DNA of 64,000 nt from Lachnospiraceae bacterium P6B14 (GTDB lineage: Bacteria; Bacillota; Clostridia; Lachnospirales; Lachnospiraceae), in contig JHWZ01000003.1 of assembly GCA_000687695.1 (NCBI GenBank), forward strand, positions 124,001 to 188,000, given 5' to 3'. The position numbers and the translations under genes are program-made. Positions within the stretch are counted from its first letter, which is position 1, and each line of letters starts with the position of its first letter. Positions 14,340-56,065 of this stretch are shown piece by piece. The notes under the pieces were generated by a model. It had not been told where the DNA came from, did not search any database, and saw nothing but the letters and a program-made list of their open reading frames with translations.

Positions 14340-14660
14340 ATGACTGATGAACAGGTGCTGTGTGCGAGCAGCAAATATGAACAGAAATACTTTTTGAATC
14401 CGAGGTTTAACGACACTTTGCCCAAGCAGGTAAAGGATGAACTTCAGGCGTTGATGGTTTTATATACGGAGGATGTTGGTGGGATACTGACACTTTCCTA
14501 CGATGAGGAAGGTAATTTGTATTTTTCTACAACTGCTGCTGACGGTGATCTCGATTATGACGAGATCGGAGCATTTTTGAAGATAAAACAATACCAAGAA
14601 AAATATAAAGAATTGTTAGAGGATTTAGAGGAGTATTATAAAGCGTTCTTTGCGCGATAA
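14340..14660 (+). CDS. DUF6145 family protein
   Basis: A 106-residue soluble protein beginning MTDEQVLCASSKYEQKYFLN, followed by 'VLYTEDVGGILTL' and a C-terminal helix. This matches my recollection of the small Lachnospiraceae family DUF6145, which has no assigned function. I chose the ATG at 14340 with GGAGAG just upstream; an in-frame TTG at 14328 would add four residues but has no ribosome site. It probably shares a transcript with the citrate synthase gene. The stop codon lies inside the 5' arm of structured element B1. Confidence 0.75.
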   Translation: MTDEQVLCASSKYEQKYFLNPRFNDTLPKQVKDELQALMVLYTEDVGGILTLSYDEEGNLYFSTTAADGDLDYDEIGAFLKIKQYQEKYKELLEDLEEYYKAFFAR

Positions 14661-14789
14661 GCGCGAGTCTGTGCAGATCATGTGTGCATCGCATGCTTGC
14701 ATGCAGATGGACACATGGATGCACAGAAGAGCCAACGGACAGCGAGGATGCCGAAGGGATCCGAGCCTGTGCGGTGGACTCGCGCTTAT
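14657..14789 (+). repeat. Family B structured intergenic element, copy B1
   Basis: The outer stem is 13 bp and perfect: ATAAGCGCGAGTC (14657-14669) with GACTCGCGCTTAT (14777-14789). Inside is a long hairpin, CTGTGC/GCACAG then CATGTGT/ACACATG then CATC/GATG then GCATG/CATGC closed by a CTTG loop. The conserved strand CCAACGGACAGCGAG (14732-14746) follows, then a third hairpin GGAT-G-CC/GG-G-ATCC with a GAA loop. The outer stem includes the stop codon of the upstream gene. The coaX ribosome site begins 13 bases downstream. Confidence 0.88.
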
Positions 14790-14811
14790 ATAGCTCATTA
14801 TGGAGGATAAT

Positions 14812-15576
14812 ATGTTATTAGCTATAGATGTCGGTAATACAAATATTACAATCGGGCTTGTGGATGGCAAAGAGATCAAGCACGAATTTCGCTTAACTAC
14901 GGACCTTCCGCGTACCTCGGATGAGTTTGGCGCGTCGATAATGGAGCAGCTTTCTCATCAGAGTGTTACCGCAGACGATATCGAGGATGTTATTATTTCA
15001 TCTGTTGTTCCGAAGGTGAATTATTCACTTAGTAGTGGTATTTATAAGTACTTAAACTGTGATGCTATCTTCATAGGAAATGGAACTAAATCTGGCATTA
15101 GAATTGCACTTCCGAATCCGGTTGAGGTTGGTGCCGACAGAGTGGTGGATGCCGCCGGGGCATTTTTCTTGTACGGTGGTCCGGTTATCGTGATAGACTT
15201 CGGTACGGCGACTACTTATGACCTTGTAACGGAGGACGGTTCGTTTATCGCGGGTGTCACGGCACCGGGACTGAGGACGGCTGCGAAGGCGCTTTGGAGC
15301 GGGGCTGCGAAGCTTCCGGAGATTGAGATAGAAAAGCCCGAGTCGATCCTTGCGAAGTCGACGATCCCGAGTATGCAGGCGGGGCTTGTGTACGGATGTA
15401 TCGGGCAGACAGAGTATATCATCGATCATTTCAAAGAGGAGTCGGGGCTGGATGCCAAGGTTGTTGCGACAGGCGGACTCGGACGAGTGATCGCTGATTC
15501 TACGGATAAGATCGATGTTTACGACAGGAATCTGACCTTGCAGGGACTCAGGATTATATATGAAAAGTCAAAATGA
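14812..15576 (+). CDS. coaX: Type III pantothenate kinase
   Basis: This 254-residue enzyme phosphorylates pantothenate in the first step of coenzyme A synthesis. It has the ASKHA fold: phosphate-1 motif [13 protein letters not shown] (about residues 4-16), phosphate-2 motif [13 protein letters not shown] (about 125-137), the conserved GADRV and the glycine-rich [10 protein letters not shown] and ATGGLGRV. The start ATG 14812 is chosen because GGAGG lies five bases upstream; a frame four codons longer has none. The upstream structured element B1 separates it from the DUF6145 gene. dusB follows after about 24 bases, probably in the same transcript. Confidence 0.95.
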
Positions 15577-15600
15577 TGCTTTTGGAGGATGGTTAAGGAT

Positions 15601-16599
15601 ATGATGGGTACTGATTCTGTGGTTGACGGAGGAAACAAAGTCGGTGGGATCAGTATCGGTGGAGTTACGCTCGAGGCGGGAGCCATCCTTGCACCTATGG
15701 CCGGAGTGACTGATATCTGCTATCGTACCATCTGCCGCGAGATGGGCGCGTCGATGGTCGGTACCGAGATGGTTAGTGCAAAGGGAATATACTATAATAA
15801 TAAAAATACAGATGAGCTGCTGGAGATCGGAGAGAGTGAGAGGCCGGTTTCTCTGCAGCTTTTTGGTTCTGATCCTAAGATCGTTTCCGAGATGGCAAAG
15901 AGGATAGAGGACAGGCCTTTTGATATTCTTGATTTCAACATGGGATGTCCGGTGCCGAAGGTTGTCAAAAATGGTGAGGGGTCGGCTTTACTTAACGATA
16001 TTCCACTTGCTTATAAAGTGTTGAAGGCGACTGTGGATGCGATAGATAAGCCTGTGACCGTGAAGATCAGAAAGGGTTTTCATGACGGTGAGGAGCAGGG
16101 ACTCGAGATGGCGAAGGCTGCCGAGGAGGCAGGAGTAGCCGCAATCGCCGTGCATGCGAGGACCAGGGATCAGTATTACAGCGGGAAGGCTGACTGGGGT
16201 TTTATAAGGAGAGTTAAGGAGTCAGTGAGTGTGCCCGTGATCGGGAACGGGGATATTTTTAGCGCAGAGGATGCGCTTTTGATGGTTTCGGAGACCGGTT
16301 GCGATGGTGTTATGATCGGCCGTGCGGCTAAAGGAAATCCGTGGATATTTGCACAGGTGAAGGAGGCTTTTATCTCCGGGAAGACTGATTTTCAGAAGCC
16401 ATCGTATGAGGAAATGTGTGGGATGTTACTGAGGCATGCGGCTGATGAGGTGGAGAGGATCGGTGAGGAGAGAGCGATGCGGATGATGAGGACGCATTTC
16501 GCGTGGTACACGGCCGGTTATCCCGGATCCGTTAAACTTCGGCGGCAGATGAATATGATTAATACATATGATGATATGAAAAGGCTATTACAGATATAA
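15601..16599 (+). CDS. dusB: tRNA-dihydrouridine synthase B
   Basis: A TIM-barrel FMN enzyme of about 332 residues that reduces uridine to dihydrouridine in the tRNA D loop. Visible motifs are LAPMAGVTD near the N-terminus (FMN phosphate region), [20 protein letters not shown] with the catalytic Cys, '[16 protein letters not shown]' and 'GNGDIFS', ending with '[13 protein letters not shown]'. The C-terminal helical tRNA-binding domain is present. The start is uncertain: GGAGG (15584-15588) abuts an ATG at 15589, too close to use, so ATG 15601 or 15604 is more likely. It lies downstream of coaX. The stop codon touches structured element A3. Confidence 0.92.
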
Positions 16600-16737
16600 G
16601 CAGGATGAGAGTGTGTATCTGTGGGCGCACGCTTGCGCTTTTTTATCATACGTCACGTTGTGCGCGCATAGAGTACATGCGCTGCGCAACGACGTATGAT
16701 AGACATCGCCCACAGTGATACACTTCTCTCATCCTGC
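16600..16737 (+). repeat. Family A structured intergenic element, copy A3
   Basis: It begins at the base after the dusB stop codon. GCAGGATGAGAG (16600-16611) pairs with CTCTCATCCTGC (16726-16737). The stem continues TGTAT-CTGTGGGCG with CGCCCACAG-ATACA across bulges. GCGCA-CGCT-TGCGC plus six T follows. Then ATCATACGTC-AC-GTTG pairs with CAACGACGTATGAT, topped by a GCGC-rich stem. The folP ribosome site starts about 20 bases later. Confidence 0.9.
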
Positions 16738-16769
16738 CTGTGCCCATGGTAAATTTGGAGGATATCAGA

Positions 16770-17585
16770 ATGAGAATAATGGGAATATTGAACGTGACGC
16801 CTGACTCGTTTTCGGATGGCGGGAGATATGCGGATGTAGACATGGCGGTGAAATGCGCTCTTAGGATGGTTGATGAAGGTGCGAGTGTTATCGACGTCGG
16901 AGGCGAGTCTACGAGGCCGGGATATACTGCTGTTTCCATGATCGAGGAGATGAACAGGGTTGTGCCGGTGATCAGGGAGATACGTAAAAGAAGCGATGTG
17001 ACCATATCGATAGATACTTATAAATATGAGGTCGCGAAAGCTGCGATAGAGGCCGGGGCGGATATGCTTAATTCAATCTGGGGATTTGTTAAGGATGAGA
17101 GACTGGCTGAGCTTGCAGGAAAGACCGGGGTTCAGGTCGTGTTGATGCATAACAGGGAGGAGCCAGCTGATATCGATGTCGGACGTCATAACAGCTTAGA
17201 CAAATTGGAGATCACTCCAAATGAATCTGCTTATATGGAGTTGGTCAAAACAGAGATCGCAAGGTCGTTGGATATAGCAAAAAAATGTGGGATAAAACAG
17301 AATCGGATATGGATCGACCCCGGAGTAGGTTTTGGAAAAACTTATGAGCAAAACCTCACCGTTATAAGGCACGTGGATCAGCTTGTGGAGATGGGGTATC
17401 CTGTTCTTATGGCGGCATCGAGAAAAAGTGTTATAGGAACGGCGCTCGACCTTCCCGTGGATCAGAGAGAAGAAGGAACCATGGCTATATCCGTTTATGC
17501 TACCATGAAAGGGTGTGCTATGGTAAGAGTTCATGATGTGGAAAAAAATGCCCGAGCGATCGGCATGATAGAAAGGATTCTTTGA
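16770..17585 (+). CDS. folP: Dihydropteroate synthase
   Basis: This 271-residue TIM-barrel enzyme joins p-aminobenzoate to dihydropterin pyrophosphate in folate synthesis; it is the sulfonamide target. Visible are GILNVTPDSFSDGG (pterin and phosphate site, near residue 5), the VIDVGGESTRPG loop, 'ISIDTYK', 'LMHNR', 'IDPGVGFGKT' and the substrate-binding 'AASRKSVIG'. The start was placed at ATG 16770, with GGAGG eight bases upstream; a longer frame lacks a site. No folE, folB or folK is next to it, so the folate genes are dispersed here. A terminator follows at 17600-17628. Confidence 0.95.
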   Translation: MRIMGILNVTPDSFSDGGRYADVDMAVKCALRMVDEGASVIDVGGESTRPGYTAVSMIEEMNRVVPVIREIRKRSDVTISIDTYKYEVAKAAIEAGADMLNSIWGFVKDERLAELAGKTGVQVVLMHNREEPADIDVGRHNSLDKLEITPNESAYMELVKTEIARSLDIAKKCGIKQNRIWIDPGVGFGKTYEQNLTVIRHVDQLVEMGYPVLMAASRKSVIGTALDLPVDQREEGTMAISVYATMKGCAMVRVHDVEKNARAIGMIERIL

Positions 17586-17599
17586 TAAATATAGACGAG

Positions 17600-17628
17600 G
17601 ACCGGCTGATATAGTCGGTCTTTTTTTT
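17600..17628 (+). terminator. Terminator after folP
   Basis: GACCGGCT (17600-17607) pairs with AGTCGGTC (17613-17620), with one G-U pair and a five-base loop, and is followed by eight T. It separates folP from the efflux genes. Confidence 0.92.
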
Positions 17629-17756
17629 ATGTGTTATGATCTGACAAAAACACATTTTGTTACTTTTTTATTCACAGACTGCACACATTTTTTATTTAAT
17701 GTAAAACTATGCTCAGGATGTATCTGTAAACATGGATATATGAAACGGAGGTTTCT

Positions 17757-19289
17757 ATGAAGAAAAAGAAGAAAGGCCTGATAATAGGGGGAGTATTATT
17801 AGTCGCATTTATTGTCAGCGGGTGTATCTTTTTGCCGGGGTTACTTGGAAAAAAGGTATCTCATGCCGAAAACGAAAGGCAGATAAATACGGTGACACTT
17901 GAAAAAATGGACCTGACTGAATCCGTCAGCGCGACCGGTACGATTGAGGCCGCATCATCGGACACGGTTTCGGCCGATGTTCAAAATGTGACGGTGAAGG
18001 ATGTTTTGGTCAGTGTCGGGGATACAGTGACAAAGGGACAAAAGCTTGTTTCTTTTGACAAATCCGAGTTAAAGGAGGCACTCGCTGAGGCGAAGGAGGA
18101 CTATAGTGATACGGTCTCTCAGACGTCTTCGGAGCTTTCGCAGGCATATCAGCAGTTATCAGAGGCGAGATCTACTTACTACAGCGAAAAGAAAAAGCTG
18201 GAAAAGAAGGTCAAGGAAGCCAAGGCTGCTCTGAAAAAAGCAAAGAAGGCAGCAAAGTCCGGAAATTCAAATATAAATGCGACGACACCGGATACGCTAT
18301 CTGATACATCAATTACGATAAATACAAATATGTCTTCAGGTACCATGTCTGTTTCCGAGGCAGAGGCGGCACTCGAACAGGCAAAGGAGAATCTGGAAAG
18401 CACAAATAAGCAGAATCAGAAATCCATTACTCAGGCGCAGCAGCAGGTAACTCAGGCTCAGACAAATAATAAAAAACAACTTCGCCAGGGAAAACGATCT
18501 GTTCAGGATGCAAAAAAGACACTTGAATCAGCATCCATGACAGCGACTATGGACGGTACAGTAACTGCTCTCGGAGTTTCCGACGGTGATAGTTATAACG
18601 GGGGAGATGCAGTACAAATAAGTGATCTTTCAAGCCTTCAGGTTACAACTACTATTAGCGAATATGATATAAATAAAGTTGAAAAAGGACAGCGTGTAGT
18701 AATACTTACAGATGCAACAGGTGATGAGGAAATTGAGGGTGAAATAACCTATGTCGCACTGACTATGGGAGACACTACTTTATCAGGTTCTCAGTCACAG
18801 TCAGGATCGGATATTAGCAGCGGAATGAGCGGTTCTTCATCGTCTTCGTCAGGCAGTGGATATGAGGTTATTATTACACTTAAAAATGCAAACGAAAAAC
18901 TCCGCTCGGGAATGACTGCCAAGTGCAGTATTATAACAAAAGAAGCATCGGATGTTTTTGCTGTCCCATATGATGCGATTCATACAAGCAGTGATAATAA
19001 AGATGTTATTTATGTAAAGGATTCCTCAGGAAACAGAAGTGAGGTAGAGGTTACAAAAGGAATGGAAAGTGACTACTATGTGGAGGTCTCCGGCGAAGCC
19101 CTGAGCGAGGGTATGTCAGTGATCATTCCATCTGACGAGGTATCAACGGATTCTTCAAAAAGCGATGATTCTTCGGATGGAGGATTTGGCTTCATGATGG
19201 GTGGAGGTGATATGCCGGGTGGAGGATTCCCCGGCGGTGGAAGTAACGGAGGACCGCCGAGTGGCGGATTTCCGGGAGGATCGAACTGA
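17757..19289 (+). CDS. HlyD/MacA-like adaptor subunit of ABC efflux system
   Basis: This 510-residue membrane-fusion protein has one N-terminal transmembrane segment (about residues 5-27). A biotinyl-lipoyl half follows, then a long coiled coil rich in Lys, Ala, Glu and Gln (about 100-265), the second lipoyl half ('MDGTVTALGVSDGDS') and a beta-barrel domain. In MacAB-like systems of Gram-positives this protein bridges the ABC permease and the wall. Oddities are a Ser/Gly-rich insertion at about 343-365 within the barrel region and a Gly/Pro/Phe-rich tail with repeated GGG. The start has GGAGG six bases upstream. The ATPase and permease genes follow, separated by a hairpin cluster. Confidence 0.88.
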   Translation: MKKKKKGLIIGGVLLVAFIVSGCIFLPGLLGKKVSHAENERQINTVTLEKMDLTESVSATGTIEAASSDTVSADVQNVTVKDVLVSVGDTVTKGQKLVSFDKSELKEALAEAKEDYSDTVSQTSSELSQAYQQLSEARSTYYSEKKKLEKKVKEAKAALKKAKKAAKSGNSNINATTPDTLSDTSITINTNMSSGTMSVSEAEAALEQAKENLESTNKQNQKSITQAQQQVTQAQTNNKKQLRQGKRSVQDAKKTLESASMTATMDGTVTALGVSDGDSYNGGDAVQISDLSSLQVTTTISEYDINKVEKGQRVVILTDATGDEEIEGEITYVALTMGDTTLSGSQSQSGSDISSGMSGSSSSSSGSGYEVIITLKNANEKLRSGMTAKCSIITKEASDVFAVPYDAIHTSSDNKDVIYVKDSSGNRSEVEVTKGMESDYYVEVSGEALSEGMSVIIPSDEVSTDSSKSDDSSDGGFGFMMGGGDMPGGGFPGGGSNGGPPSGGFPGGSN

Positions 19290-19317
19290 TTAGTATAAGT
19301 GTATGGGTTGGAGGATA

Positions 19318-19438
19318 GTGTGAAAAATCGCATTGATATGCCGATTTTTCACACGCACTCTGTGCCGGAATGGCACAGGAGTGCCTGATGCGACATGCGT
19401 GTTGGAGACACGCATGCGCGAGCCGCAGAAATCGCGGC
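19318..19438 (+). repeat. Hairpin-cluster element C between adaptor and ATPase genes
   Basis: Four consecutive hairpins fill the gap. GTGTGAAAAATCG (19318-19330) pairs with CGATTTTTCACAC (19342-19354), with CAT/ATG inside. GCACTC-TGTGCC pairs with GGCACA-GAGTGC (19355-19384). CATGCGTGT pairs with ACACGCATG (19394-19416). GCCGC pairs with GCGGC (19422-19438). There is no U tail, so it is not a terminator. The ATPase ribosome site starts directly afterwards. Confidence 0.75.
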
Positions 19439-19452
19439 ATGAAAGGATTAAT

Positions 19453-20139
19453 ATGGGAAAAAACAGTGAACCTATTATCGAATTAAACGGCATAGTGAAG
19501 CGATTTTTCATCGGACATCCAAATGAGCTTGAGGTCTTGCATGGGATTGACCTTAACGTAAGGGAAGGTGAGTTCGTCTCCGTGGTCGGTGAATCGGGCT
19601 CCGGTAAATCGACGCTTATGAATATCATCGGTGCTCTCGACAGACCGACCGAGGGATCGTATTGTCTCCGTGGGACGGATGTGACGAAGGCGAAGGATAA
19701 GCAGCTTTCTGATATCAGGAATCGTGAAATAGGGTTTGTTTTTCAGACCTATAATCTGATATCGAGAACGTCGGCTCTTAAAAATGTCGAGCTTCCCATG
19801 CTCTATGCAGGTAAGTCCAAAAAGGAAAGATCGGAAAAGGCGAAGGAGCTTTTGAAACTGGTCGGGATGGAAGACCGTATGAGCCACAAGCCTGATGAGC
19901 TTTCGGGAGGTCAGAAGCAGCGTGTGGCCATAGCGAGAGCTGTGGCGAACGATCCGGCTATCATACTTGCTGATGAGCCGACGGGAGCACTTGATTCGGA
20001 AACCGGACACAAGATAATGGATATTTTTCACAAGCTTCATGAAAGGGGAAAAACGATCGTTTTGATCACACACTCAAAGGAGCTTGCGGAGGAGACGGAG
20101 CGTATAGTTCATATCAGTGATGGTTCGATAGTTGCGTAA
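19453..20139 (+). CDS. MacB-like ABC transporter ATPase
   Basis: This 228-residue ATPase has Walker A GESGSGKST at about residues 44-52, the Q-loop 'FVFQTYNL', the signature LSGGQKQR, Walker B ILADEPTGALD and the H-loop ITHSKE. The spacing and 'ADEPTGALD' wording are typical of the MacB/LolD/FtsE class, which works with extracytoplasmic FtsX-type permeases. The start at 19453 has AAAGGA five bases before it; the frame upstream runs through hairpin element C and is not coding. The permease begins 22 bases downstream, and together with the adaptor they form a tripartite-like efflux set. The substrate is unknown; antimicrobial peptides or macrolides are typical. Confidence 0.92.
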   Translation: MGKNSEPIIELNGIVKRFFIGHPNELEVLHGIDLNVREGEFVSVVGESGSGKSTLMNIIGALDRPTEGSYCLRGTDVTKAKDKQLSDIRNREIGFVFQTYNLISRTSALKNVELPMLYAGKSKKERSEKAKELLKLVGMEDRMSHKPDELSGGQKQRVAIARAVANDPAIILADEPTGALDSETGHKIMDIFHKLHERGKTIVLITHSKELAEETERIVHISDGSIVA

Positions 20140-20161
20140 GATAAGGCATGGAGGATGATTT

Positions 20162-21463
20162 ATGCTTATTTGGGAGAATATAAAACTGGCGCTCTCAGGC
20201 ATACTTGGAAACAAAATGAGGTCTGTGCTCACGATGCTCGGTATCATCATCGGTATCGGGTCGGTTATAGCGATAATGACAGTGAGTACCTCGCTCACAT
20301 CATCGATCTCAAGTACGTTTGCCGATCTCGGAGCAAACAACATAACAGTCGGAGTGAGAAGGCAGTCTGAGCAGCAGGAGACCAGAGAAAACGGCATGCG
20401 ATTCGGTAAGTCAAACAGACAGGTTTCATTGGATGAAGAGGACCGTATCACGGATGATATGCTTGATGAACTGAAAAAAAGATACAACGAAAAGATTGAT
20501 TCGTTTTCGATGTCGGAGTCTGTAGGGAGCGCGACGGTAACGCTTGGTGAGAACTCGGCAAATATATCCGTAGAAGGTATAAACCAGGGTTACTATGACG
20601 CAAATGATGTGGCGTTACTCGGCGGAAGATATCTGACGGAAGAAGATGTATCCGGGGAAAAGGCCGTGATCATGGTCTCCGACAAGATGATAGAGGCTCT
20701 CTACGGAGAGGGAACAACATATGAGTCTGTTCTCGGAAAAAGGATCCTGGTAGATATAAACGGACTTTACTATTCGTTCTATATAGTCGGTGTTTATGAA
20801 TATGAGGAAGATGCAACGTCGTTCTCGTCCGAGTCAGATGAAGATGTTGAGACAGCAGTATATATTCCGATCACTACTGCAAAGAATAAGCTTCACAGCG
20901 ATAACGGTTATCAGCAGGTGACAGTGGTCACGACTGAAGCGGTCACGGATGTAACGACCTTTGCGACAGAGATCAAGGAATACATGAATAACAAGTTTTA
21001 TGCTACGAATGATGATTACAAGATATCTACCACCACGATGAGCTCGCTCACGGAATCCATGAGTGATACGATAGGTACAGTCGCTATAGCGATCGCCTTT
21101 ATTGCAGGTATATCACTTTTGGTAGGTGGAATAGGTGTCATGAATATCATGCTCGTATCCATCACGGAGAGAACCCGTGAGATAGGTACGAGAAAGGCGC
21201 TTGGTGCCAAGAACTCGTCCATAAGACTTCAGTTCATCATCGAAGCGATGATACTGTGTCTGATAGGAGGATTGCTTGGTATCACACTCGGATTCGGACT
21301 CGGGGCTATCGCGGCATCGGTCATGGGGTATTCGGCAGCGGCGCCGGTTGCTGCCATCGTAGGCTCTGTGGCGTTTTCCATGGGTATCGGAATATTTTTC
21401 GGATTCTACCCTGCGAACAAGGCGGCGAAGATGGATCCGATAGAGGCTCTCAGATACGAATAA
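20162..21463 (+). CDS. MacB-like ABC transporter permease (FtsX superfamily)
   Basis: This 433-residue membrane protein has one N-terminal helix (about residues 22-45, 'LTMLGIIIGIGSVIAI'). A large extracytoplasmic MacB-PCD domain (about 48-305) follows, then three C-terminal helices, the FtsX domain, including 'GGIGVMNIMLVSITERTREIGTRKALGA' spread over about 325-355. This is the standard four-helix MacB permease. The start has GGAGG seven bases upstream. It completes the adaptor-ATPase-permease set and probably exports a hydrophobic compound or peptide, an inference from the family. Confidence 0.92.
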   Translation: MLIWENIKLALSGILGNKMRSVLTMLGIIIGIGSVIAIMTVSTSLTSSISSTFADLGANNITVGVRRQSEQQETRENGMRFGKSNRQVSLDEEDRITDDMLDELKKRYNEKIDSFSMSESVGSATVTLGENSANISVEGINQGYYDANDVALLGGRYLTEEDVSGEKAVIMVSDKMIEALYGEGTTYESVLGKRILVDINGLYYSFYIVGVYEYEEDATSFSSESDEDVETAVYIPITTAKNKLHSDNGYQQVTVVTTEAVTDVTTFATEIKEYMNNKFYATNDDYKISTTTMSSLTESMSDTIGTVAIAIAFIAGISLLVGGIGVMNIMLVSITERTREIGTRKALGAKNSSIRLQFIIEAMILCLIGGLLGITLGFGLGAIAASVMGYSAAAPVAAIVGSVAFSMGIGIFFGFYPANKAAKMDPIEALRYE

Positions 21464-21516
21464 AAAAGGGCTTCAGAGCGGTCCGGGTATGTAACTCGGT
21501 CCGTCTGAAGCCCCTT
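21464..21516. terminator. Bidirectional terminator
   Basis: GGGCTTCAGA (21468-21477) pairs with TCTGAAGCCC (21504-21513), with a second inner stem CGGGT/ACTCG. On the minus strand it is followed by six U, so it mainly serves the lipoprotein gene ending at 21532. On the plus strand the tail is weak. Confidence 0.85.
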
Positions 21517-21531
21517 GATGGATCAGATCTT

Positions 21532-22425: not shown

Positions 22426-22487
22426 GAATGATAGTATGCATTAGTGATGAGATCGTTGCTATTGCAAATCATATCGGAGGGTATGAG

Positions 22488-42143: not shown

Positions 42144-42164
42144 AACCTTGCATGGTGCAAGGTT
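42144..42164 (+). promoter_or_regulatory. Leader hairpin of sugar-binding protein gene
   Basis: AACCTTGCA and TGCAAGGTT form a perfect nine-bp hairpin with a TGG loop, ending about 11 bases before the GGAGG of the binding-protein gene. It could stabilise the mRNA 5' end or be a regulator site. No U tail follows. Confidence 0.7.
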
Positions 42165-42189
42165 CACAGAAAAAAGGAGGAAACAAAAA

Positions 42190-43224
42190 ATGAAAAGAAA
42201 ACTGATTGCATTACTCATGGTTATGGTAATGGCATTCGCTCTCACCGCTTGTGGTGACGAGGCAAAACCGGCAGCTGACAATGCAGCTCCTGCAGCAGAC
42301 GATAAGGCAGCTGACGATGCAGCACCGGCTGACAACGCAGACTCAGGTAAGACAATCAAAGTTGGTATCATCAACAACGATCCGAACGAGTCAGGATATC
42401 GTACAGCAAACGACAAAGACCTCAAGGCTAAGTTCTCAGCAGAGAATGGCTACGATGCACAGTTTGCATACAGCCTGAAGAACGATGAGCAGCAGGCATC
42501 TGCTAAGAAGTTCATCGAGGATGGTGTTGATTATCTTCTCCTTTCCGCTGCAGATACAGCAGGATGGGATTCAGTTCTTAAGCAGGCACAGGATGCCGGC
42601 ACAAAGGTAATCCTTTTCGACCGTACTATCGATGCTGATCCGTCTCTCTATGAGGCATCAATCGTATCAGACATGGATAAAGAGGGTCAGACAGCAGTTG
42701 ATTGGCTCGCAGGCCAGAACCTTTCAGAGTACAACATCATCCATATCCAGGGTGTTATGGGTTCAGCAGCTCAGAAGGGACGTTCAGGAGCACTCGATGC
42801 TAAGAAGGCTGATGGATGGAACATCGTTGAGCAGCAGACAGCTGAGTGGAACGCAGAGAAGGCTCAGCAGATCGTACAGGCTGTAATCGATGGTGGCAAG
42901 AAGTTCAACGTAATCTATGCAGAGAACGACGATATGGCTAAGGGAGCTGTAGCAGCTCTTGATAAGGCAAACATCTCACACGGTGTTGGCAAAGACGTAA
43001 TCGTTATGGGATTTGACTGCAACAAGTGGGCTCTTGAGGAGCTTCTCAAGAAGAACTGGAACTATGATGGTCAGTGTAACCCGTTCCAGTCATCATACAT
43101 CGACGATGTAATCAAAAAGCTTGAGGCTGGTGAGACACTCGCTGAGAAGACAATCGTTATGGATGAGAAGGGCTTCGATGCAGAGAGCATCACTCAGGAA
43201 GACGTAGACAACTACGGCATTTGA
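42190..43224 (+). CDS. Sugar ABC transporter substrate-binding lipoprotein
   Basis: This 344-residue lipoprotein has a signal peptide ending LTAC (lipidated Cys near residue 21) and an Ala/Asp/Pro-rich linker. A periplasmic-binding-protein fold (type 1) follows, starting 'TIKVGIINNDPNESGYRTAN'. Blocks 'FIEDGVDYLLLSAADTAGWD' and 'VILFDRTIDADPSLY' follow the pattern of YtfQ, the galactofuranose-binding protein. GGAGG lies nine bases before ATG 42190. A structured element and a terminator separate it from the ATPase gene, so it should be expressed more strongly than the transporter. The actual sugar is not deducible. Confidence 0.9.
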   Translation: MKRKLIALLMVMVMAFALTACGDEAKPAADNAAPAADDKAADDAAPADNADSGKTIKVGIINNDPNESGYRTANDKDLKAKFSAENGYDAQFAYSLKNDEQQASAKKFIEDGVDYLLLSAADTAGWDSVLKQAQDAGTKVILFDRTIDADPSLYEASIVSDMDKEGQTAVDWLAGQNLSEYNIIHIQGVMGSAAQKGRSGALDAKKADGWNIVEQQTAEWNAEKAQQIVQAVIDGGKKFNVIYAENDDMAKGAVAALDKANISHGVGKDVIVMGFDCNKWALEELLKKNWNYDGQCNPFQSSYIDDVIKKLEAGETLAEKTIVMDEKGFDAESITQEDVDNYGI

Positions 43225-43232: not shown

Positions 43233-43348
43233 GGCATGAGCCTGTGCGCAGTATATGAACAGCGCGTGCTTGCACGCAGATGTACATATACGAGCACAGG
43301 TGAGTCCAACGGACAACGAGAACACGAAGTGTTCGAGTTGCTCATGCC
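43233..43348 (+). repeat. Family B structured intergenic element, copy B2
   Basis: The outer stem is GGCATGAGC (43233-43241) with GCTCATGCC (43340-43348). The inner long hairpin is CTGTGC/GCACAG, GTATATG/CATATAC and GCGTG/CACGC closed by CTTG. The conserved strand CCAACGGACAACGAG (43306-43320) follows, then a third hairpin GAACAC/GTGTTC with a GAA loop flanked by CAAC/GTTG. It starts nine bases after the stop codon. Stem sequences differ from B1 while pairing is kept. Confidence 0.88.
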
Positions 43349-43384: not shown

Positions 43385-43416
43385 GGCGCAGCGCAGTTTA
43401 TGCGTTGCGCCTTTTT
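43385..43416 (+). terminator. Intra-operon terminator after binding-protein gene
   Basis: GGCGCAGCGCA (43385-43395) pairs with TGCGTTGCGCC (43401-43411), with one G-U pair, followed by five T. It would reduce transcription into the ATPase and permease genes. Confidence 0.88.
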
Positions 43417-48199: not shown

Positions 48200-48203
48200 A
48201 ACT

Positions 48204-48797
48204 ATGGCATTTGAAGACAGCTTTTTGTTATTTTTGCAGGACAATGTCAGAAACGATTTTATGACACCGATCATGAAGGGGGTTACATTTATAGGTGATC
48301 ACGGAGGCTTGGTGTGGATTATTCTGGCGCTCCTTTTGGTCATCATCAAAAAGACAAGATGGGTTGGTATAGGGGTCGGCGGAGCGCTCGCTCTATCCGG
48401 ACTTTTTACAAACCTTATCATAAAGCCTTTGGTACAGAGGGAGAGGCCGTATGCTATGATACCGGGCCTTAATCCGTTGGGGGAGATCCCCACCGATACA
48501 TCATTTCCGTCAGGACATGCATCAGCGGGGATGGCCGCGGCGGTGGCTTTTTTCATAGTACTGCCGTGGATCATGGACAGAACCAAAGCGCACGTACTCG
48601 GTGCGATGATAATAGTGCTTTCGTTGTGTATTTGTTTTTCCAGACTGTATTTGGGAGTGCATTATCCTACAGATGTTCTCACAGGCTTGCTTTTAGGGAT
48701 CATTTATGGTATCATATCGGGAAGGGTAGTTGGTATGATACGAAGGAGGTTTTTGGGCGATGTCGATAGAGATACTGGCGAAGCAGATGAAAAATGA
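48204..48797 (+). CDS. PAP2 superfamily membrane phosphatase
   Basis: This 197-residue membrane protein has five or six helices and the three-part PAP2 active site: KPLVQRERPY (motif 1, about residues 72-81), PSGHASAG (motif 2, about 101-108) and SRLYLGVHYPTDVLTG (motif 3, about 145-160) with the nucleophilic His. Family members dephosphorylate undecaprenyl pyrophosphate (BcrC-like) or phosphatidylglycerol phosphate. Its last 38 bases overlap the proA frame, an unusually long overlap. It starts five bases after the binding-protein stop. Confidence 0.92.
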   Translation: MAFEDSFLLFLQDNVRNDFMTPIMKGVTFIGDHGGLVWIILALLLVIIKKTRWVGIGVGGALALSGLFTNLIIKPLVQRERPYAMIPGLNPLGEIPTDTSFPSGHASAGMAAAVAFFIVLPWIMDRTKAHVLGAMIIVLSLCICFSRLYLGVHYPTDVLTGLLLGIIYGIISGRVVGMIRRRFLGDVDRDTGEADEK

Positions 48798-50067: not shown

Positions 50068-50129
50068 ACATATATGGTATCGTGGGATGCGTACGCTGGT
50101 GGCATGCGCTTTCGAATGCGAGGTAGTAT

Positions 50130-51137
50130 ATGGAAAAAGACAAAAAACTGTTTCAACGACTGTGTATACATTTCGTATTTTTGGCCCTGGCGGTGATCTT
50201 CATCGTGATGGGGTGGTGGATAGCCCTCGCTATCGAGGCGGTCGTGGCTGTCGCTCTCATCGTTCTGATAGCGTTTTACATGGTGAGTTTTACGCTGGTA
50301 AGAAAATCACCCATTGTGAAGGATGATGTCTCGGTACTAGGCCGTCACGGCGAGCTGAATGATTTCGTGAAGGATGCCGTACTGTGGCTCGAGACAGGTG
50401 AAATATGGGAGCAGGTGAGCTTCGACGGGCTGAAGCTGTACGGGAGATTTTTGAAAAATGAGGGCTCGCACGTCTATGCGATCTGCTGTCATGGCTACAA
50501 GAATCAACGTATGCAGGATATCTCAAACCAGGCGAAGCATTTTTATGATATGGGATATAATGTCTTTTGCGGACACGCCAGAGGCCACGGCAGGAGCGAA
50601 GGCAACTATATCGGCATGGGGACGAATGAAAGACGTGACATCGCCGGATGGATAAAAATGATAGTTGAGATGGATCCGGAGGCGAGGATATTTTTATACG
50701 GAGTGTCGATGGGCGGTGCTACCGTGATGACGACAAGCGGAGAGGACCTTCCGGAAAATGTGAAGTGCGTTATACAGGATTGCGGATTTACGAGTCCGTG
50801 GGATGAGTTCACATACCACATAAAGGAACAGTTCGGATTACCATACAGGCCGATACTTGATATCTGTCAGGTGATATCGAGGAGTCGGTACGGGTTCGGA
50901 TTTCACGAGTTTTCCGCGATAGAACAGGTGAAAAAGACGAGCTTGCCGTTTTTGATGATACACGGTGATCTGGACACGTATGTTCCGTACAGGATGTTTA
51001 AACCCTTATATGAGGCGTGCGCCTCGGAGAATAAGAAGGCGGTCACTATAGAGGGAGCAGCACACGCTGAGGCGTATTGGAGAGATCCCGAGACATATTG
51101 GTCGGAAGTGGATAATTGGATTAAAACGTATCTTTGA
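50130..51137 (+). CDS. Membrane-anchored alpha/beta hydrolase
   Basis: This 335-residue protein has two N-terminal hydrophobic segments (about residues 10-55) followed by an alpha/beta-hydrolase fold. The nucleophile is in GVSMGG (Ser near residue 193), the acid in HGDLDTYVP (about 278) and the His in GAAHAEAYW (about 310). The oxyanion region 'ICCHGYKNQRMQD' is typical of the BAAT/BD-FAE-like serine hydrolases seen in Lachnospiraceae. The substrate is unknown. GAGG lies six bases before the start. It is not obviously linked to the flanking proA or GGDEF genes. Confidence 0.88.
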   Translation: MEKDKKLFQRLCIHFVFLALAVIFIVMGWWIALAIEAVVAVALIVLIAFYMVSFTLVRKSPIVKDDVSVLGRHGELNDFVKDAVLWLETGEIWEQVSFDGLKLYGRFLKNEGSHVYAICCHGYKNQRMQDISNQAKHFYDMGYNVFCGHARGHGRSEGNYIGMGTNERRDIAGWIKMIVEMDPEARIFLYGVSMGGATVMTTSGEDLPENVKCVIQDCGFTSPWDEFTYHIKEQFGLPYRPILDICQVISRSRYGFGFHEFSAIEQVKKTSLPFLMIHGDLDTYVPYRMFKPLYEACASENKKAVTIEGAAHAEAYWRDPETYWSEVDNWIKTYL

Positions 51138-51171
51138 TAAATGGCATGTTGGTTTTTATGGAGGATAGTGA

Positions 51172-53130
51172 ATGTCCGGAAAAAAGTTAGCTGTTTTTAT
51201 CACTGAGTGGGATCCGCATTTTTGGAGCCGTATACTCAAAGGTATAGGTAATCACGCAAAGTCTCGCGGTTACGAGGTGTTTGTTTTCGATTGCTTCGGT
51301 GGGTCCGGAGTAAAGAGAAAACATGATAAAGGCGAGTTCCATATTTTCGATCTGCCCGATATTACGCAGTTTGACGGTGTTATCGTTGCTGCTTCAACTA
51401 TCGTGCCGACTGTTGTTGTAAAAAGTCTCGGGGAGCGTATAGTGAAAAGCGGCGTTCCCGCAATTTCTTTGGAGGTGCCCATCGATGGTCTTGACTTCGG
51501 TGGTATCTCAAATCATGATGCTATGATTTCGATGATGGATCATGTCATCGTACATCACAAATGCAGACGAATATACTATGTTTCCGGTCCTGAGGGAAAT
51601 GCCGAAGCGAGTATGCGAAAAAGCGCATACTTTGATGCCATGGAGAAAGCGGGACTCGAGGTAAGCGAGGAAAACGTCTTTACGGGAACATATGAGTTTG
51701 AGAGCGGATATCGTTCCGTGGACTATTTCAAAGCGCTTCCTGACGGACTTCCCCAGGCTATCGTATGTGCGAATGACGCTATGGCGATGGGAGTGTGCAG
51801 GAGGCTTGACGAGCTCGGTGTATCGGTTCCCGACCAGGTGATAGTTACGGGCTTTGATAATATTGACACATCAAATGACTACGTGCCGAGCCTCACTACC
51901 GTTTCGAGACCAAAGAAAGATTTGGGCGCTTTGGCTTGTGACTATATCATCAGTAAGATAGAGGATCCTTCGTTATCGACGGGAGTAAAATGCAAAACCA
52001 GACTTGAGTTTCGTGAGAGTTGCGGATGTCAGAGTACAAATCTGTATGTCGGACGCAAGTTCAGAGAGCAGCATTTCCGTCAGATCGAGGAGGAGGCAAA
52101 CCTGTCTCGTTTCATGAACAGGATGCTCGCAAGAGTGACGGATTGTGATTGGTTTTCAGAGCTTTTCAAATGCCTTCAGGATTACGTGGATATGCTCGAG
52201 TGTGAGAGGTTTTATTTTTGCATAGATCACAGTCTGATCGACGAGGGGATAGTTCTTCCCGGCGATCACACCGACAAGGATACGATCAGAAAGCAGCTCA
52301 GATGGATGAAGGAGGATTTCCCGGAGCATGTATCGGTAGTCCTGGCAACCAATAAAGGAAAGCTATTCAAGTGTGCCGACTACAACGGAAGGGAAAGGAT
52401 AATGCCGATCGAGGAGGAGAAGTTCAGGTCTTCCTCTGATTTGTATATTTACGAACCAATCCACTATCAGGATAACTGCTTCGGATACTGTATAATGGTC
52501 AATCCTACTCCGGGCAAGCGTATACTCGGAGTCAATCAGTGGCTGTTGATGGTCGGAAATGCCATAGAGACTATCCGCAGAAAGCATGTGATGAATCTGG
52601 CGATCGAACAGCTCGACGAGCTGTATACCACGGATCCTATGACGGGACTGTATAACAGATATGGTCTGGAGAGGTATGCAGCGGAGATGATCAACATATG
52701 CGTGCAGGAACGTCAGCCTTTAGTCGCGGTATTTTTCGATCTGGACGGGCTGAAGCCCATCAATGATGAGTTCGGACATGAGGTCGGTGACATCGCGATC
52801 AAGACTGTCGCTGACGTGTTACGTATCGTCGGCGATGAGGGTGATGTGATCACGAGGATAGGCGGCGACGAGTTTTTGGCGCTGTGTTCAGTCGATCTGG
52901 AATTGGTCGAGAGAAAGATACATCAGGTCGATATCGAGTTGGAGAAGAAGAATAAAGAGCTCGACTTACCGTTCACAGTCAGTGCCAGTGCCGGATACAA
53001 ATGCATCATTCCGAATGAGAACTTCGATTTAGATGCGCTTATCGAGGAGGCTGATCAGGCGATGTATGAGGTGAAAAAGAAAAAGAAAGAAGCGATGTCT
53101 TTACAAAACAGCAAAAATAGTATATCATAG
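51172..53130 (+). CDS. LacI-like ligand-binding domain fused to GGDEF diguanylate cyclase
   Basis: This 652-residue soluble protein has no signal peptide or membrane segment. Residues of about 5-285 form a LacI/PurR-type periplasmic-binding fold without the DNA-binding HTH, including 'IVCANDAMAMGVCRRLDELGVSVPDQ' and 'VTGFDNIDTS'. A helical/GAF-like middle (about 300-480) leads to a GGDEF domain with RIGGDEF near 562-568 and the 'DPMTGLYNRYG' entry motif. The active site is intact, so c-di-GMP synthesis is expected. The product-inhibition I-site RxxD is not at its usual place (DEGD). It may couple an intracellular small ligand, such as a sugar or nucleobase, to c-di-GMP. Confidence 0.9.
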   Translation: MSGKKLAVFITEWDPHFWSRILKGIGNHAKSRGYEVFVFDCFGGSGVKRKHDKGEFHIFDLPDITQFDGVIVAASTIVPTVVVKSLGERIVKSGVPAISLEVPIDGLDFGGISNHDAMISMMDHVIVHHKCRRIYYVSGPEGNAEASMRKSAYFDAMEKAGLEVSEENVFTGTYEFESGYRSVDYFKALPDGLPQAIVCANDAMAMGVCRRLDELGVSVPDQVIVTGFDNIDTSNDYVPSLTTVSRPKKDLGALACDYIISKIEDPSLSTGVKCKTRLEFRESCGCQSTNLYVGRKFREQHFRQIEEEANLSRFMNRMLARVTDCDWFSELFKCLQDYVDMLECERFYFCIDHSLIDEGIVLPGDHTDKDTIRKQLRWMKEDFPEHVSVVLATNKGKLFKCADYNGRERIMPIEEEKFRSSSDLYIYEPIHYQDNCFGYCIMVNPTPGKRILGVNQWLLMVGNAIETIRRKHVMNLAIEQLDELYTTDPMTGLYNRYGLERYAAEMINICVQERQPLVAVFFDLDGLKPINDEFGHEVGDIAIKTVADVLRIVGDEGDVITRIGGDEFLALCSVDLELVERKIHQVDIELEKKNKELDLPFTVSASAGYKCIIPNENFDLDALIEEADQAMYEVKKKKKEAMSLQNSKNSIS

Positions 53131-53216
53131 AAGTTAATCTTTACGTCCGAGAGGGCGAAATGATAAAAAAGCGCGTGAATACGTCCGGTAGACGTGTTCA
53201 GAAAGGTAGGAAAAAG

Positions 53217-54974
53217 ATGGAGAAGGAAGAATTTTTGGGATTGTATCGTCACTCGTTGGCACACATCCTGGCAAAGGCAGTTATCGAGATTTTCGGTAAG
53301 GATGAGGTACAGTTTTCGATCGGACCGCAGATCGACGACGGTTGCTACTATGATTTCACACTGCCGAGACCGGTAAAGGAAGAGGATTATCCTGTCATCG
53401 AGGAAAAGATGCGTGAGATCCTGAAGAGAAAAGAGGATTGGACCAGGAAGGAAGTATCGAAGGATGAGGCCCGGGCTATTTTTAAGGATCAGAAGTTCAA
53501 AATGGAGCTGATCGAGGAGTTGCCCGAGGATGAGATCATCACGATCTACTATACAGGTGATGACTACGTGGATCTGTGTCGCGGACCGCACGTAGCGAAC
53601 TCTCAGGAGCTGTTGTCGACCGCTTTTCAGGTGAAGAGTGCGTCGGGAGCGTACTGGAGAGGTGATGAGAAGCGTGACAGCATGCAGAGAATCTACCTGT
53701 ATGCTTTTCCGGATAAGCAGCAGTTAAAGGAGCATCTGGCGCTCGTACGCGAGGCTCAGGAAAGAGATCACAAGAAACTCGGACCGCAGCTGGGACTTTT
53801 TATGTTCCACGAGACAGCGCCGGGTATGCCGTACTGGCTGCCGAAGGGCTGGAAGCTTTACAATGCTTTGCTTGATTTCTGGAGAGATATTCATGAGCGT
53901 CACGGATATCAGGAGATAAGCGCGCCGGTGCTTAATTCACGTGAGCTTTGGATCACATCCGGACACTGGGCTCACTATCAGAACAACATGTTTATTTCTG
54001 AGATCGATGAGAATACGGTTTATGCGATCAAGCCGATGAACTGCCCCAACGCGATCAATGTTTATCGCAACGAAGGCAGATCATACAAGGATTTTCCGCT
54101 GAGATTTTCGGAGACTTCTCCGATTCATCGTAAGGAGAAGTCGGGAGAGCTTAACGGCCTTTTCCGTGTACAGCTTTTCCACCAGGATGATGATCATACC
54201 TTCCTTATGGAGGATCAGATCGGTGATGAGATCGCCGATATCATGAAGATCGCTGATACGATCTACAATACACTCGGACTTACATACAGAGCCGAGCTTT
54301 CCACACGTCCTGATGACTTTATGGGAGATATCGAGCTTTGGGACAAGGCTGAGGCATCTCTTAAGGAGATACTTGACAAGACATACGGAGAGGGCGGTTA
54401 TGAGATCAATGAGGGCGATGGTGCGTTCTACGGACCGAAGATCGACCTGCAGATGAAGGATGCACTCGGACGTGAGTGGCAGATGGGTACCATCCAGCTT
54501 GACTTCCAGCTGCCGGGTAACTTCGAGCTGAAGTATGCGGCACCGGATGGCACACAAAAGCAGCCTGTTATGATCCATCGTGCTTTATTTGGTTCGTTTG
54601 AGAGATTTATCGGTATCCTTATCGAGAACTTTAAGGGTGCATTCCCGTTCTGGCTCTCACCGATACAGGTTTCTATCGTGCCGATCAGAACGGAGCATAA
54701 TGAGTATGCGAAGAAGGTCGAGGAGGCTCTGAGGGATCGTCGTATCAGAGTGGAGACTGACTACTCAGATAAGAATATGATGAACAAGATTAAGAATTAT
54801 AAAAAGGCCAAGACTCCTTATATCGTTGTAATCGGTGACAAGGAGGCAGCTGAGGGTACGGTTTCTCTGAATATCCGAGGGACGAATCAGCAGAAGAACG
54901 ATATTCCGCTTGATGACTTTATCGCTATGTGCGAACGTATGCAGCGTGAGAAGCCGCTGGAACTCGAATCATAA
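53217..54974 (+). CDS. thrS: Threonyl-tRNA synthetase lacking the TGS domain
   Basis: This 585-residue class II synthetase begins directly with the editing domain ('YRHSLAHILAKAV', the HxxxH region near residue 11). It lacks the N-terminal TGS domain of the roughly 640-residue standard form. The catalytic core has the zinc-ligand Cys in MNCPNA, the motif 2 loop 'GLFRVQLFHQDDDHTFL' and motif 3 'HRALFGSFERF', followed by the anticodon-binding domain. Start ATG 53217 follows AGGTAGGA; a longer frame to 53160 begins with basic residues unlike the family. I see no T-box leader in the 86-base upstream gap. Confidence 0.94.
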   Translation: MEKEEFLGLYRHSLAHILAKAVIEIFGKDEVQFSIGPQIDDGCYYDFTLPRPVKEEDYPVIEEKMREILKRKEDWTRKEVSKDEARAIFKDQKFKMELIEELPEDEIITIYYTGDDYVDLCRGPHVANSQELLSTAFQVKSASGAYWRGDEKRDSMQRIYLYAFPDKQQLKEHLALVREAQERDHKKLGPQLGLFMFHETAPGMPYWLPKGWKLYNALLDFWRDIHERHGYQEISAPVLNSRELWITSGHWAHYQNNMFISEIDENTVYAIKPMNCPNAINVYRNEGRSYKDFPLRFSETSPIHRKEKSGELNGLFRVQLFHQDDDHTFLMEDQIGDEIADIMKIADTIYNTLGLTYRAELSTRPDDFMGDIELWDKAEASLKEILDKTYGEGGYEINEGDGAFYGPKIDLQMKDALGREWQMGTIQLDFQLPGNFELKYAAPDGTQKQPVMIHRALFGSFERFIGILIENFKGAFPFWLSPIQVSIVPIRTEHNEYAKKVEEALRDRRIRVETDYSDKNMMNKIKNYKKAKTPYIVVIGDKEAAEGTVSLNIRGTNQQKNDIPLDDFIAMCERMQREKPLELES

Positions 54975-55016
54975 GACGTGGCCTTATCGGGCAGATTTAG
55001 CTGCTTGAGGACAACC

Positions 55017-55151
55017 GGGATGAGTATGTGTATTCTGCTCGGGCCCGCTTGCGCTTATTTCCAAGCGTCACGTTGCACGCATGTAAAATACACATGCTGC
55101 GCAACGACGCTTGCAACATGACCCTCGCAGGGAATACACATATCTCATCCC
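55017..55151 (+). repeat. Family A structured intergenic element, copy A4
   Basis: GGGATGAG (55017-55024) pairs with CTCATCCC (55144-55151), and TGTGTATTC with GAATACACA. CCGCTTGCGC follows on the 5' side. The inner stem CAAGCGTC-AC-GTTG pairs with CAACGACGCTTG, with the same AC bulge as other copies, topped by GCATGT/ACATGC. It sits between thrS and the IMP cyclohydrolase gene. Confidence 0.88.
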
Positions 55152-55187
55152 TGCTGTACTGAATGAGAATAATTGAAGGAGAGATTA

Positions 55188-55203
55188 GTGTGAAAAATCA
55201 CAC
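55188..55203 (+). promoter_or_regulatory. Small hairpin before IMP cyclohydrolase gene
   Basis: GTGTGA-AAAA-TCACAC is a perfect six-bp hairpin ending five bases before the GGAGG. Its 5' part GTGTGAAAAATC also opens hairpin element C at 19318. A role in translation control is possible but unproven. Confidence 0.55.
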
Positions 55204-55219
55204 TGAATGGAGGATTAAA

Positions 55220-55936
55220 ATGAAGAAAGTATCATTAGAGGAAGAACTGAAAGGTAACGATTATCCGGGACGCGGCATCGTTATCGGAAAGAGCCCTGAT
55301 GGAAAGAAGGCTGTTACTGCTTACTTTATCATGGGAAGAAGTGAGAATAGCAGGAACAGAGTTTTTGTCGAGGATGGTGAAGGAATAAGGACTCAGGCTT
55401 TTGATGAGTCAAAGGTAGAAGATCCGTCTCTTATCATCTATGCACCGGTCAGAGTACGTGGTATCGATACCATCGTGACTAATGGTGATCAGACTGATAC
55501 CATTTATGACGAGATGGAGAAGGGAAAGAGCTTTCAGCAGGCTCTGATGACTCGCGAGTTCGAGCCGGATGCTCCTAACTACACACCTCGTATTTCGGGT
55601 ATCATGAGAGTAAATAAGGGCAGCTTTGATTATGCGCTCTCGATATTAAAGAGTCATAATGGAGATCCGTCAGGCTGTGACAGATTCACATATCATTATC
55701 AGAATCCGACAGCAGGAGAGGGTTATTTTATCCATACTTATATGGGTGACGGTAACCCGCTTCCAAGCTATGAAGGTGATCCTACTCTTGTGTCGATAGA
55801 TGACGATATTTCAGCGTTTACGGACAAAATATGGAACTCACTTAATGCTGATAATAAGGTGTCACTTTTTGTGAGATATATCGATATTGAAACAGGTAAA
55901 TATGACACTAAAATTGTTAATAAAAATGAGCGATAA
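55220..55936 (+). CDS. IMP cyclohydrolase (PurO-like)
   Basis: A 238-residue enzyme of the IMP cyclohydrolase family related to archaeal PurO, closing the ring of FAICAR to IMP. Recognisable segments are NDYPGRGIVIGKSPDGKKAV (about residues 12-31), 'YFIMGRSENSRNRVF' and 'YAPVRV' followed by 'VVTNGDQTD'-like sequence, and 'PNYTPRISG'. It replaces the N-terminal cyclohydrolase half of the usual bifunctional PurH. ATG 55220 follows GGAGG by six bases. The AICAR formyltransferase gene lies downstream, separated by structured element B3 that begins right at this gene's stop codon. Confidence 0.9.
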   Translation: MKKVSLEEELKGNDYPGRGIVIGKSPDGKKAVTAYFIMGRSENSRNRVFVEDGEGIRTQAFDESKVEDPSLIIYAPVRVRGIDTIVTNGDQTDTIYDEMEKGKSFQQALMTREFEPDAPNYTPRISGIMRVNKGSFDYALSILKSHNGDPSGCDRFTYHYQNPTAGEGYFIHTYMGDGNPLPSYEGDPTLVSIDDDISAFTDKIWNSLNADNKVSLFVRYIDIETGKYDTKIVNKNER

Positions 55937-56065
55937 GGCGTGAGTCTGACCGAGGTATGTGTGCAGTGTGTGCTTGCACACAGATGCACACATACAAGGG
56001 CAGATGAGCCCAACGGACAACGAGGGTTTCGTAGAAACCCGAGTCTGGCAGTTGGGGTTCGCGCC
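55937..56065 (+). repeat. Family B structured intergenic element, copy B3
   Basis: It starts on the base after the stop codon. GGCGTGAG (55937-55944) pairs with TTCGCGCC (56058-56065) using two G-U pairs. The inner hairpin is GTATGTGTGCA/TGCACACATAC then GTGTG/CACAC closed by CTTG. The conserved strand CCAACGGACAACGAG (56010-56024) follows, then GGGTTTC/GAAACCC with a GTA loop. The next gene's ribosome site starts six bases after the fold. Confidence 0.88.

Follow-up and report, generated by a model that had tools for sequence, protein, structure and literature searches.

A probable mobile-derived element at gene ends in Lachnospiraceae bacterium P6B14, related to the Clostridiales-1 RNA

Three window copies and the fold they share

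The window considered here is a 64,000-nucleotide (nt) stretch of Lachnospiraceae bacterium P6B14 (contig JHWZ01000003.1, positions 124,001 to 188,000, forward strand), in which three copies of a structured element lie between genes: copy 1 between genes for a DUF6145 protein and a type III pantothenate kinase, copy 2 between those for a sugar-binding protein and an ABC ATPase, and copy 3 between those for an IMP cyclohydrolase-like protein and AICARFT/IMPCHase. All three are where the first-pass annotation of this DNA had put them, each behind a short 5' tip (our bounds are in Table 1). It had seen no pathway common to their contexts: none runs across all three, but copies 2 and 3 each sit between functionally linked genes, as expected if they lie in operons. 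Its stress on the downstream genes was misplaced, the constant neighbor being the end of the preceding gene.

Each window copy folds far better than its dinucleotide shuffles (z -7.5, -5.8, and -8.1; 0/200 shuffles as good), and the CTTG loop, concerted stem changes, and third hairpin first described in them are all present. When six genomic copies were aligned by MAFFT, with no use of structure, and one of the six served to derive a three-way junction (P1, P2, and P3), pairs formed in 95.0% of 282 cells, 21/49 pairs changed on both sides, and 0/500 shuffles were as good. There are more than three copies: a covariance model built from six genomic copies, R1, detects 24 in the organism's own 2.69-Mb genome at E<1e-4, or 27 when the limit is E<0.01. 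The stems are also preserved in the further copies. In an alignment of 98, made up of the 24 own copies and 74 from other genomes taken from among the genus R1 matches listed (97 loci searched), 94.4% of 4539 cells pair, each of the pairs (49/49) has changes on both sides, and covariation reaches 0.623, versus 0.179 when shuffled and at most 0.078 when slid. Since this alignment was fitted to the R1 model and the six-copy one was not, the latter is the fairer test. The shuffle z-scores, with pairing and covariation in both alignments, exclude chance folding. Two own copies (L039 and L040; L and G numbers denote loci and genomes) have little left beyond P3.

Copies at shared loci show how the pairs have changed. 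Between two copies at sufC (L018 and L046), 6 pairs are changed on both sides, 2 on one side, 1 is broken, and 40 are the same; over the first pair of copies in each of 25 clusters the corresponding counts are 217, 29, 69, and 850, which may include separate insertions near one gene (L032 and L049 are certainly at different points). Among the 4539 cells of the 98-copy alignment, 105 are G-U and 36 A-C; this excess favors the RNA strand as the one that is folded, although a fitted alignment biases that way.

The strand CCAACGGACARCGAG, at first taken to be single-stranded and invariant, is mostly paired and forms the 5' side of arm P3. The order of parts in this arm is CCAAC/GTTGG, a GGA/GCA spacer, CARC/G-Y-(C)-UG, a tandem GA/GA, and a variable hairpin: GGA sits in a 3x3 internal loop, R and Y of the inner stem covary, and GA contributes one half of a tandem G.A core, whose GA / GA columns are conserved at 92-95% (61 representatives). 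With at most one mismatch, CCAACGGACARCGAG is found in all three window copies and at 8 places in the own genome, its reversed control at 0. At up to three mismatches the 15-mer has 4 matches in the window (one of them unrelated) versus 1.25 expected, and by itself is weak evidence.

Within the genus, R1 reaches E<=0.01 in 21/39 genomes, and in 11 of these its best E does not exceed 1.7e-13; eight genus genomes of at least 95% completeness are without a match. In the family Lachnospiraceae, under stricter filters, R1 matches at E<=1e-5 in 3/200 genomes, the own one included, so that the variant seems largely confined to the genus. An exact-pattern search gave 8 stretches in four metagenome assemblies, two of them titled Rumen, and 0 viral contigs. 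At about 35-48 bits, the weaker genus matches take in other subfamilies, and some look like plain hairpins. One other subfamily (TGAACGCATAAGCACGAACG-like; L055, L056, L058, L063, L064, L179, L180) directly follows an extended -10-like box, TGNTANANT, making a transcription start there likely. A separate peculiarity, seen often, is one or several tandem repeats of the 3' end of the element close downstream of it (L015, L021, L036, L045, L050, L055, L056, L067).

Table 1. Window coordinates of the three copies, their arms, and the stop codons before them
Feature	Position	Strand	Remarks
Copy 1	14660-14786	+	Three-way junction; R1 125.1 bits
Copy 1, arms	P1 14660-14667/14779-14786; P2 14669-14726; CTTG loop 14696-14699; P3 about 14732-14777		
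TAA stop, DUF6145 gene (14328-14660)	14658-14660	+	Preceding gene; within copy 1 5' tip TTGCGCGATAA
Copy 1 P3, 5' side	14732-14746	+	CCAACGGACAGCGAG
Copy 2	43233-43348	+	R1 94.1 bits; RF01699 36.5 bits
Copy 2, arms	P1 43233-43240/43341-43348; P2 43242-43299		P3 half only, its 3' strand deleted
TGA stop, sugar-binding protein gene (42148-43224)	43222-43224	+	Preceding gene; 8 nt 5' of copy 2 P1
Copy 2 P3, 5' side	43306-43320	+	CCAACGGACAACGAG
Copy 3	55937-56065	+	R1 137.5 bits; RF01699 44.8 bits
Copy 3, arms	P1 55937-55944/56058-56065; P2 55946-56003; P3 about 56009-56056		
TAA stop, IMP cyclohydrolase-like gene (55163-55936)	55934-55936	+	Preceding gene; within copy 3 5' tip ATGAGCGATAA
Copy 3 P3, 5' side	56010-56024	+	CCAACGGACAACGAG

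Relation to the Clostridiales-1 RNA

At gathering thresholds, Rfam finds only one tRNA in the window. Below threshold, copies 3 and 2 match Clostridiales-1 (RF01699) over the full model, positions 1-166, with E of 1.4e-6 and 2.3e-4, their scores lying under the family's gathering cut-off of 48 bits. Of 20 own loci, 5 match it at E<=0.01 (44.8, 44.5, 42.7, 36.5, and 35.7 bits); the search of the own genome likewise gave 5 matches, all on the plus strand, which is a lower bound, as a minus-strand copy of 42.7 bits was absent from it. Among 20 loci chosen from other genus genomes, 9 match at E<0.001 and 4 pass the cut-off: L046 (50.1 bits), L067 (49.2), L051 (48.8), and L068 (48.4). The first of these, at sufC, and the last, between the genes for HU and hslR, are the same loci as own copies L018 and L032. 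In the reciprocal search R1 matches 2/30 canonical Clostridiales-1 loci at E<0.01 (L198, 7e-5; L204, 0.006). RF01699 itself is found at E<=1e-4 in 160/298 Lachnospiraceae genomes, in 136 over the cut-off and in many with all 9 candidates scored per genome; the 14 control genomes give no match at E<=1e-4, and at E<=10 four of them match, none over the cut-off.

As judged from the cmscan alignment over model positions 1-166 and the consensus of 61 representatives, the two have in common P1, a long P2 with a GCUUGC loop, a P3 with a conserved G.A core, and a CCCAAC/GUUGGG-like outer P3 stem; both are multi-copy in Lachnospiraceae. They differ in that canonical loci have a further arm, P4 (GGAUUG...CAAUCC), before P1 closes, while the own copies were read without it: among the matches read, canonical Clostridiales-1 is a four-way junction of 153-178 nt, and the variant a three-way junction of about 129 nt. 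Unlike canonical loci, the variant is mostly without an inverted end beyond P1, has no target duplication, and has a terminator-like P2 in a subset of copies. Given the scores below the cut-off, the reciprocal matches, and the absent fourth arm, the window element is filed as a divergent variant of Clostridiales-1 and not among its canonical members. As a family, the element is not wholly new.

The 2010 paper by Weinberg et al. (PMC2864571) includes Clostridiales-1 among its candidate structured RNAs, and the table row for it reads y, n, n, Clostridiales, human gut. In the open-access literature, where a few other papers give its name or accession, no function and no transposon nature of Clostridiales-1 was found.

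Stop codons upstream, gene orientation downstream

The stop codon of the longest preceding open reading frame (ORF) lies within -16 to +26 nt of P1 in 22/24 own copies and in 53/74 copies from other genomes among the matches listed, with peaks at -7 (the TGA of tip TGAGCGATAA), -6 (TAG), and 0 (TAA). Counted by site, 45/59 clusters have a preceding ORF ending in that range (61 clusters became 59 when two pairs were merged through minus-strand flank comparison). When any ORF of at least 60 codons is allowed, 50/61 clusters have an end near P1, versus 9.7% of random positions in the same loci and 19/61 for the mirror measure at the other end of the element. Canonical loci differ in this as well, with 10/30 (mirror 2).

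What follows the element varies, and one arm varies with it. A run of at least four U on the 3' side of P2 is found in 12/14 clusters facing a convergent gene versus 2/41 followed by a co-directional one (p=1.7e-8; 4/59 clusters without a called downstream gene were left out); taken the other way, the next gene is convergent in 12/14 clusters with a U run and in 2/41 of the remaining ones. Clusters with no own-genome copy behave alike: 5/6 with a U run are convergent, versus 0/25 without (p=3.5e-5). Before clusters were merged and one locus, L164, was reassigned, the U run was present at 14/17 convergent and 2/40 co-directional sites (p=9.3e-9; 6/98 copies, in 4/61 clusters, were left out for want of a called downstream gene), a convergent gene followed at 14/16 sites with a U run and 3/41 without, and the link extended beyond copies with an ACTGAG-type P1 (other types, 7,2/3,38, p=3.8e-5). 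In all three window copies the longest U run in P2 is 1 and the next gene is co-directional.

Taking an intrinsic terminator to be a stable hairpin followed by a U tract, P2 has this form in 17/61 representatives and in none of the window copies. A scan for a hairpin plus T run detects 17/17 U-run representatives in the forward direction, at -19 to -34 kcal/mol, and 16/17 on both strands; of the native terminators used as controls it detects 7/8, at -18 to -22. At 11/14 convergent clusters the end of the element either lies no more than 45 nt from the facing ORF or overlaps it, so that little room is left for another terminator. Outside the element, the interval from copy 2 to the ABC ATPase gene has a terminator-like hairpin with a T run (window positions 43385-43416).

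One of the two co-directional exceptions with a U run is the HU-hslR spacer, where element-free genomes have a native terminator. A reading of 20/30 loci there found a plain terminator in several element-free genomes. In G008 the native terminator is kept and P2 has no U run; in G000, G025, G018, G006, G016, and G007 no native terminator was seen and P2 has the U run, the element being incomplete in G016 and G007.

The window holds other structured DNA. A second long structured repeat family, perhaps the family A of the first-pass annotation, occurs at 4659-4772 (minus strand), 10757-10961, 16604-16733, 55055-55130, and 57333-57422, with z of -4.7 to -11.2 in four folds. The repeat at 16604 directly follows the stop (16599) of a gene that we take to be dihydrouridine-synthase-like, and gene ends may be where this family sits, too. 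At 4800-4944 (minus strand) a tRNA gene (4861-4944) has behind it an inverted, nearly perfect duplicate of its 3' part, which showed up as a MIR5084 match under the cut-off.

Ancestry, possible roles, and alternatives

The 30 canonical Clostridiales-1 loci read (L183-L212) look like miniature inverted-repeat transposable elements (MITEs), because of their inverted ends, 5-6-bp target duplications, and several copies per genome. In 19/30 loci the inverted ends (TGATGCCAGGGTC.../...GACCCCAACATCA) agree at no fewer than 9 of 14 positions, and of these 19 (the 11/30 with weaker inverted ends being left out of the count) 10 have an exact 5-bp duplication and 3 a 6-bp one, versus 3.5% and 0% in mismatched-pair controls. 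The P1 arms of the variant also lie at its ends, but their sequence differs between copies, and the canonical ones are longer. At 59/61 variant sites (2 near contig ends were left out) there is no target duplication, and no offset is in clear excess save the P1 ends themselves.

With the sufC end located by motif in 5/12 loci, the site is empty in G007, where SufC ends in NGFERYLQ, and in G008, where it ends in GYERYTQ; in G000 and G025 it is filled, SufC running into the element and ending in FERYCASPYEG, and G018 is filled as well. At L024 (G000) and L129 (G025) the element lies between the same two genes in opposite orientations, within a 939-nt minus-strand flank match, and both strands are terminator-like: judging from these flanks the element seems to have inverted in place, as a two-way terminator would allow.

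Building on the three-way junction, the closeness to stop codons, and the link between a paired A/U tract in P2 and a convergent neighbor, each established by sequence, we favor, with moderate confidence, the reading that the element is a gene-end module derived from mobile DNA, one that would end transcription where transcripts stop and let it pass inside operons. It is dispersed, its ancestor was probably a transposon, and it would now be kept at gene ends. At such places it would be transcribed within the mRNA. The 5' tip may often supply the stop codon, so that insertion at the last codons of an ORF would be tolerated. Where transcription should end, P2 would be a bidirectional intrinsic terminator; within operons, as for all three window copies, a P2 without the U tract would not terminate, and the folded element would stay between the cistrons, where, like intercistronic stem-loops of the REP type, it probably determines how stable the upstream part of the mRNA is compared with the downstream part. 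In P3, the conserved tandem-G.A core probably serves to bind a protein or an RNA. The two proposals of the first annotation, a general role in mRNA processing and a mobile structured repeat, come close: the element is indeed dispersed and structured, with MITE-like kin and terminator-like forms at some sites. Its emphasis on downstream genes, the invariant single strand, and novelty as a family are not supported.

Several observations weigh against this gene-end reading. Two convergent sites lack the U run and two co-directional ones have it. Downstream genes come from an ORF heuristic that is wrong at least for L164 and L068 and doubtful for L029: L164 was set to co-directional (the ORF after the element there is presumably ABC-permease-like), L068 is called convergent although hslR is the next gene, and without L029 p is 5.8e-8. 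The hairpin-plus-T scan also flags 8/44 other copies in the forward direction and 14/44 in reverse. A separate terminator scan was empty at two U-run copies, L024 and L031, we think because it disallows the bulge in P2, so that the terminator call rests on our own hairpin-plus-T scan. Stops in all three frames within -12 to +12 occur in 13/61 clusters (control 0.4%), which makes them a frequent feature and not a universal one. Of the site clusters, 14/59 lie away from an ORF end; those read are after native terminators (e.g., L049-L052, L054) or beside tRNA genes, with L026, L048, and L072 within about 15 nt of such genes and the first two abutting the 5' end of an oppositely oriented one. Copy 1 is unlisted in two cmscan runs and scores 37.4 bits against RF01699 in one genome search only. 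Finally, G-U pairs are few, a low count for an RNA family, and would be compatible with DNA-level, template-switch correction of hairpins.

The alternative that survives best, though we think it unlikely, is that of a selfish MITE-like repeat with no host function, its stems kept for mobilization and gene ends simply tolerating insertion. The canonical loci speak for it (19/30 with inverted ends, 13 of the 19 with an exact 5- or 6-bp duplication), as do the patchy distribution in the genus (21/39 genomes) and the empty sites at sufC in G007 and G008 and in several HU-hslR spacers. Set against this are the missing target duplication in the window variant, the 217 pairs changed on both sides at shared loci (some perhaps from separate insertions), and a U tract in P2 that tracks the orientation of the neighbor.

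That the element is instead a cis-regulatory switch of the downstream gene, sensing through P3 either as a riboswitch or as a leader that responds to a protein, is quite improbable. The conservation of the P3 core, 92-95% in its GA / GA columns, would suit a sensor, and the other genus subfamily starts directly after the box TGNTANANT at 7/7 readable sites; yet the window contexts share no pathway, the constant neighbor is an upstream stop codon, and 14 site clusters face a convergent gene. The Clostridiales-1 row of the 2010 table, whose second column reportedly stands for cis-regulatory, reads y, n, n, which also speaks against a switch.

Less probable again is an independently transcribed small RNA gene, which is the type (Gene; sRNA) that Rfam gives to RF01699. 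In the other subfamily the element directly adjoins promoter-like boxes, and a TTGAAA-16-TAAAAT lies at 55887-55914, 22 nt 5' of copy 3, where 0.8 would be expected by chance. Against this, 22/24 own copies are within -16 to +26 nt of a preceding ORF stop; promoters sought at L024 and L031 were not found.

The boxes of integron attC sites are RYYYAAC / GTTRRRY. A single-stranded-DNA signal for recombination or transposition (attC, or an IS200/IS605 or REP end) is the least likely of these accounts: P3 resembles attC (an outer stem, a 3x3 spacer, an inner stem that has one extra base, and a variable hairpin), and the position after stop codons and the few G-U pairs would fit, but the AAC/GTT box is variable (middle pair A-U in 55/86 cells with letters on both sides), G-U exceeds A-C by 105:36 (in a fitted alignment that leans that way), and the own genome, 98% complete, has 0 matches to the Y1 transposase family PF01797, which 5/14 control genomes match (no search was aimed at an integron integrase). 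The non-invariant outer P3 box led us to reject attC as a candidate, and the absence of PF01797 matches a REP/IS200 end.

Known repeats offer partial parallels to a mobile-derived gene-end module. REP/BIME and ERIC of enterobacteria are intercistronic structured repeats able to affect mRNA segments; their fold is different, and no RAYT-type Y1 transposase is present in the own genome. Intrinsic bidirectional terminators between convergent genes consist of an A-tract, stem, and U-tract readable on both strands; unlike these, the terminator here is one arm of a conserved three-way junction. Among the literature seen, the nearest functional precedent would be the pneumococcal SPRITE and BOX (PMC3049150; PMC10969869), which like the present element are dispersed MITE-like repeats with strong RNA structure (PMC3049150). 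SPRITE is described there as resembling a Rho-independent terminator and as enriched outside upstream regulatory regions and regions between co-transcribed genes (PMC3049150). No kinship of sequence or fold with SPRITE or BOX was seen, without a dedicated test, and the element differs from them as described there in being one family with terminator and non-terminator forms that abuts stop codons.

The pattern that emerges here is that kin of Clostridiales-1 mark gene ends, that their P2 is terminator-like before a convergent gene, and that canonical members carry transposon hallmarks. On this view, an orphan RNA family of the Lachnospiraceae would become mobile DNA that supplies transcript ends. 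A more speculative extension, which we rate as unlikely, is that Clostridiales-1 as a whole is a transposon superfamily whose fold may have been recruited as a ready-made gene end with its own stop codon. P2 would then be tuned, as a paired A/U tract is gained or lost, to be either a two-way terminator or an intercistronic block that lets transcription pass, and the P3 core would bind a common factor, through which a single regulator would reach dozens of transcript ends that are otherwise unlinked.

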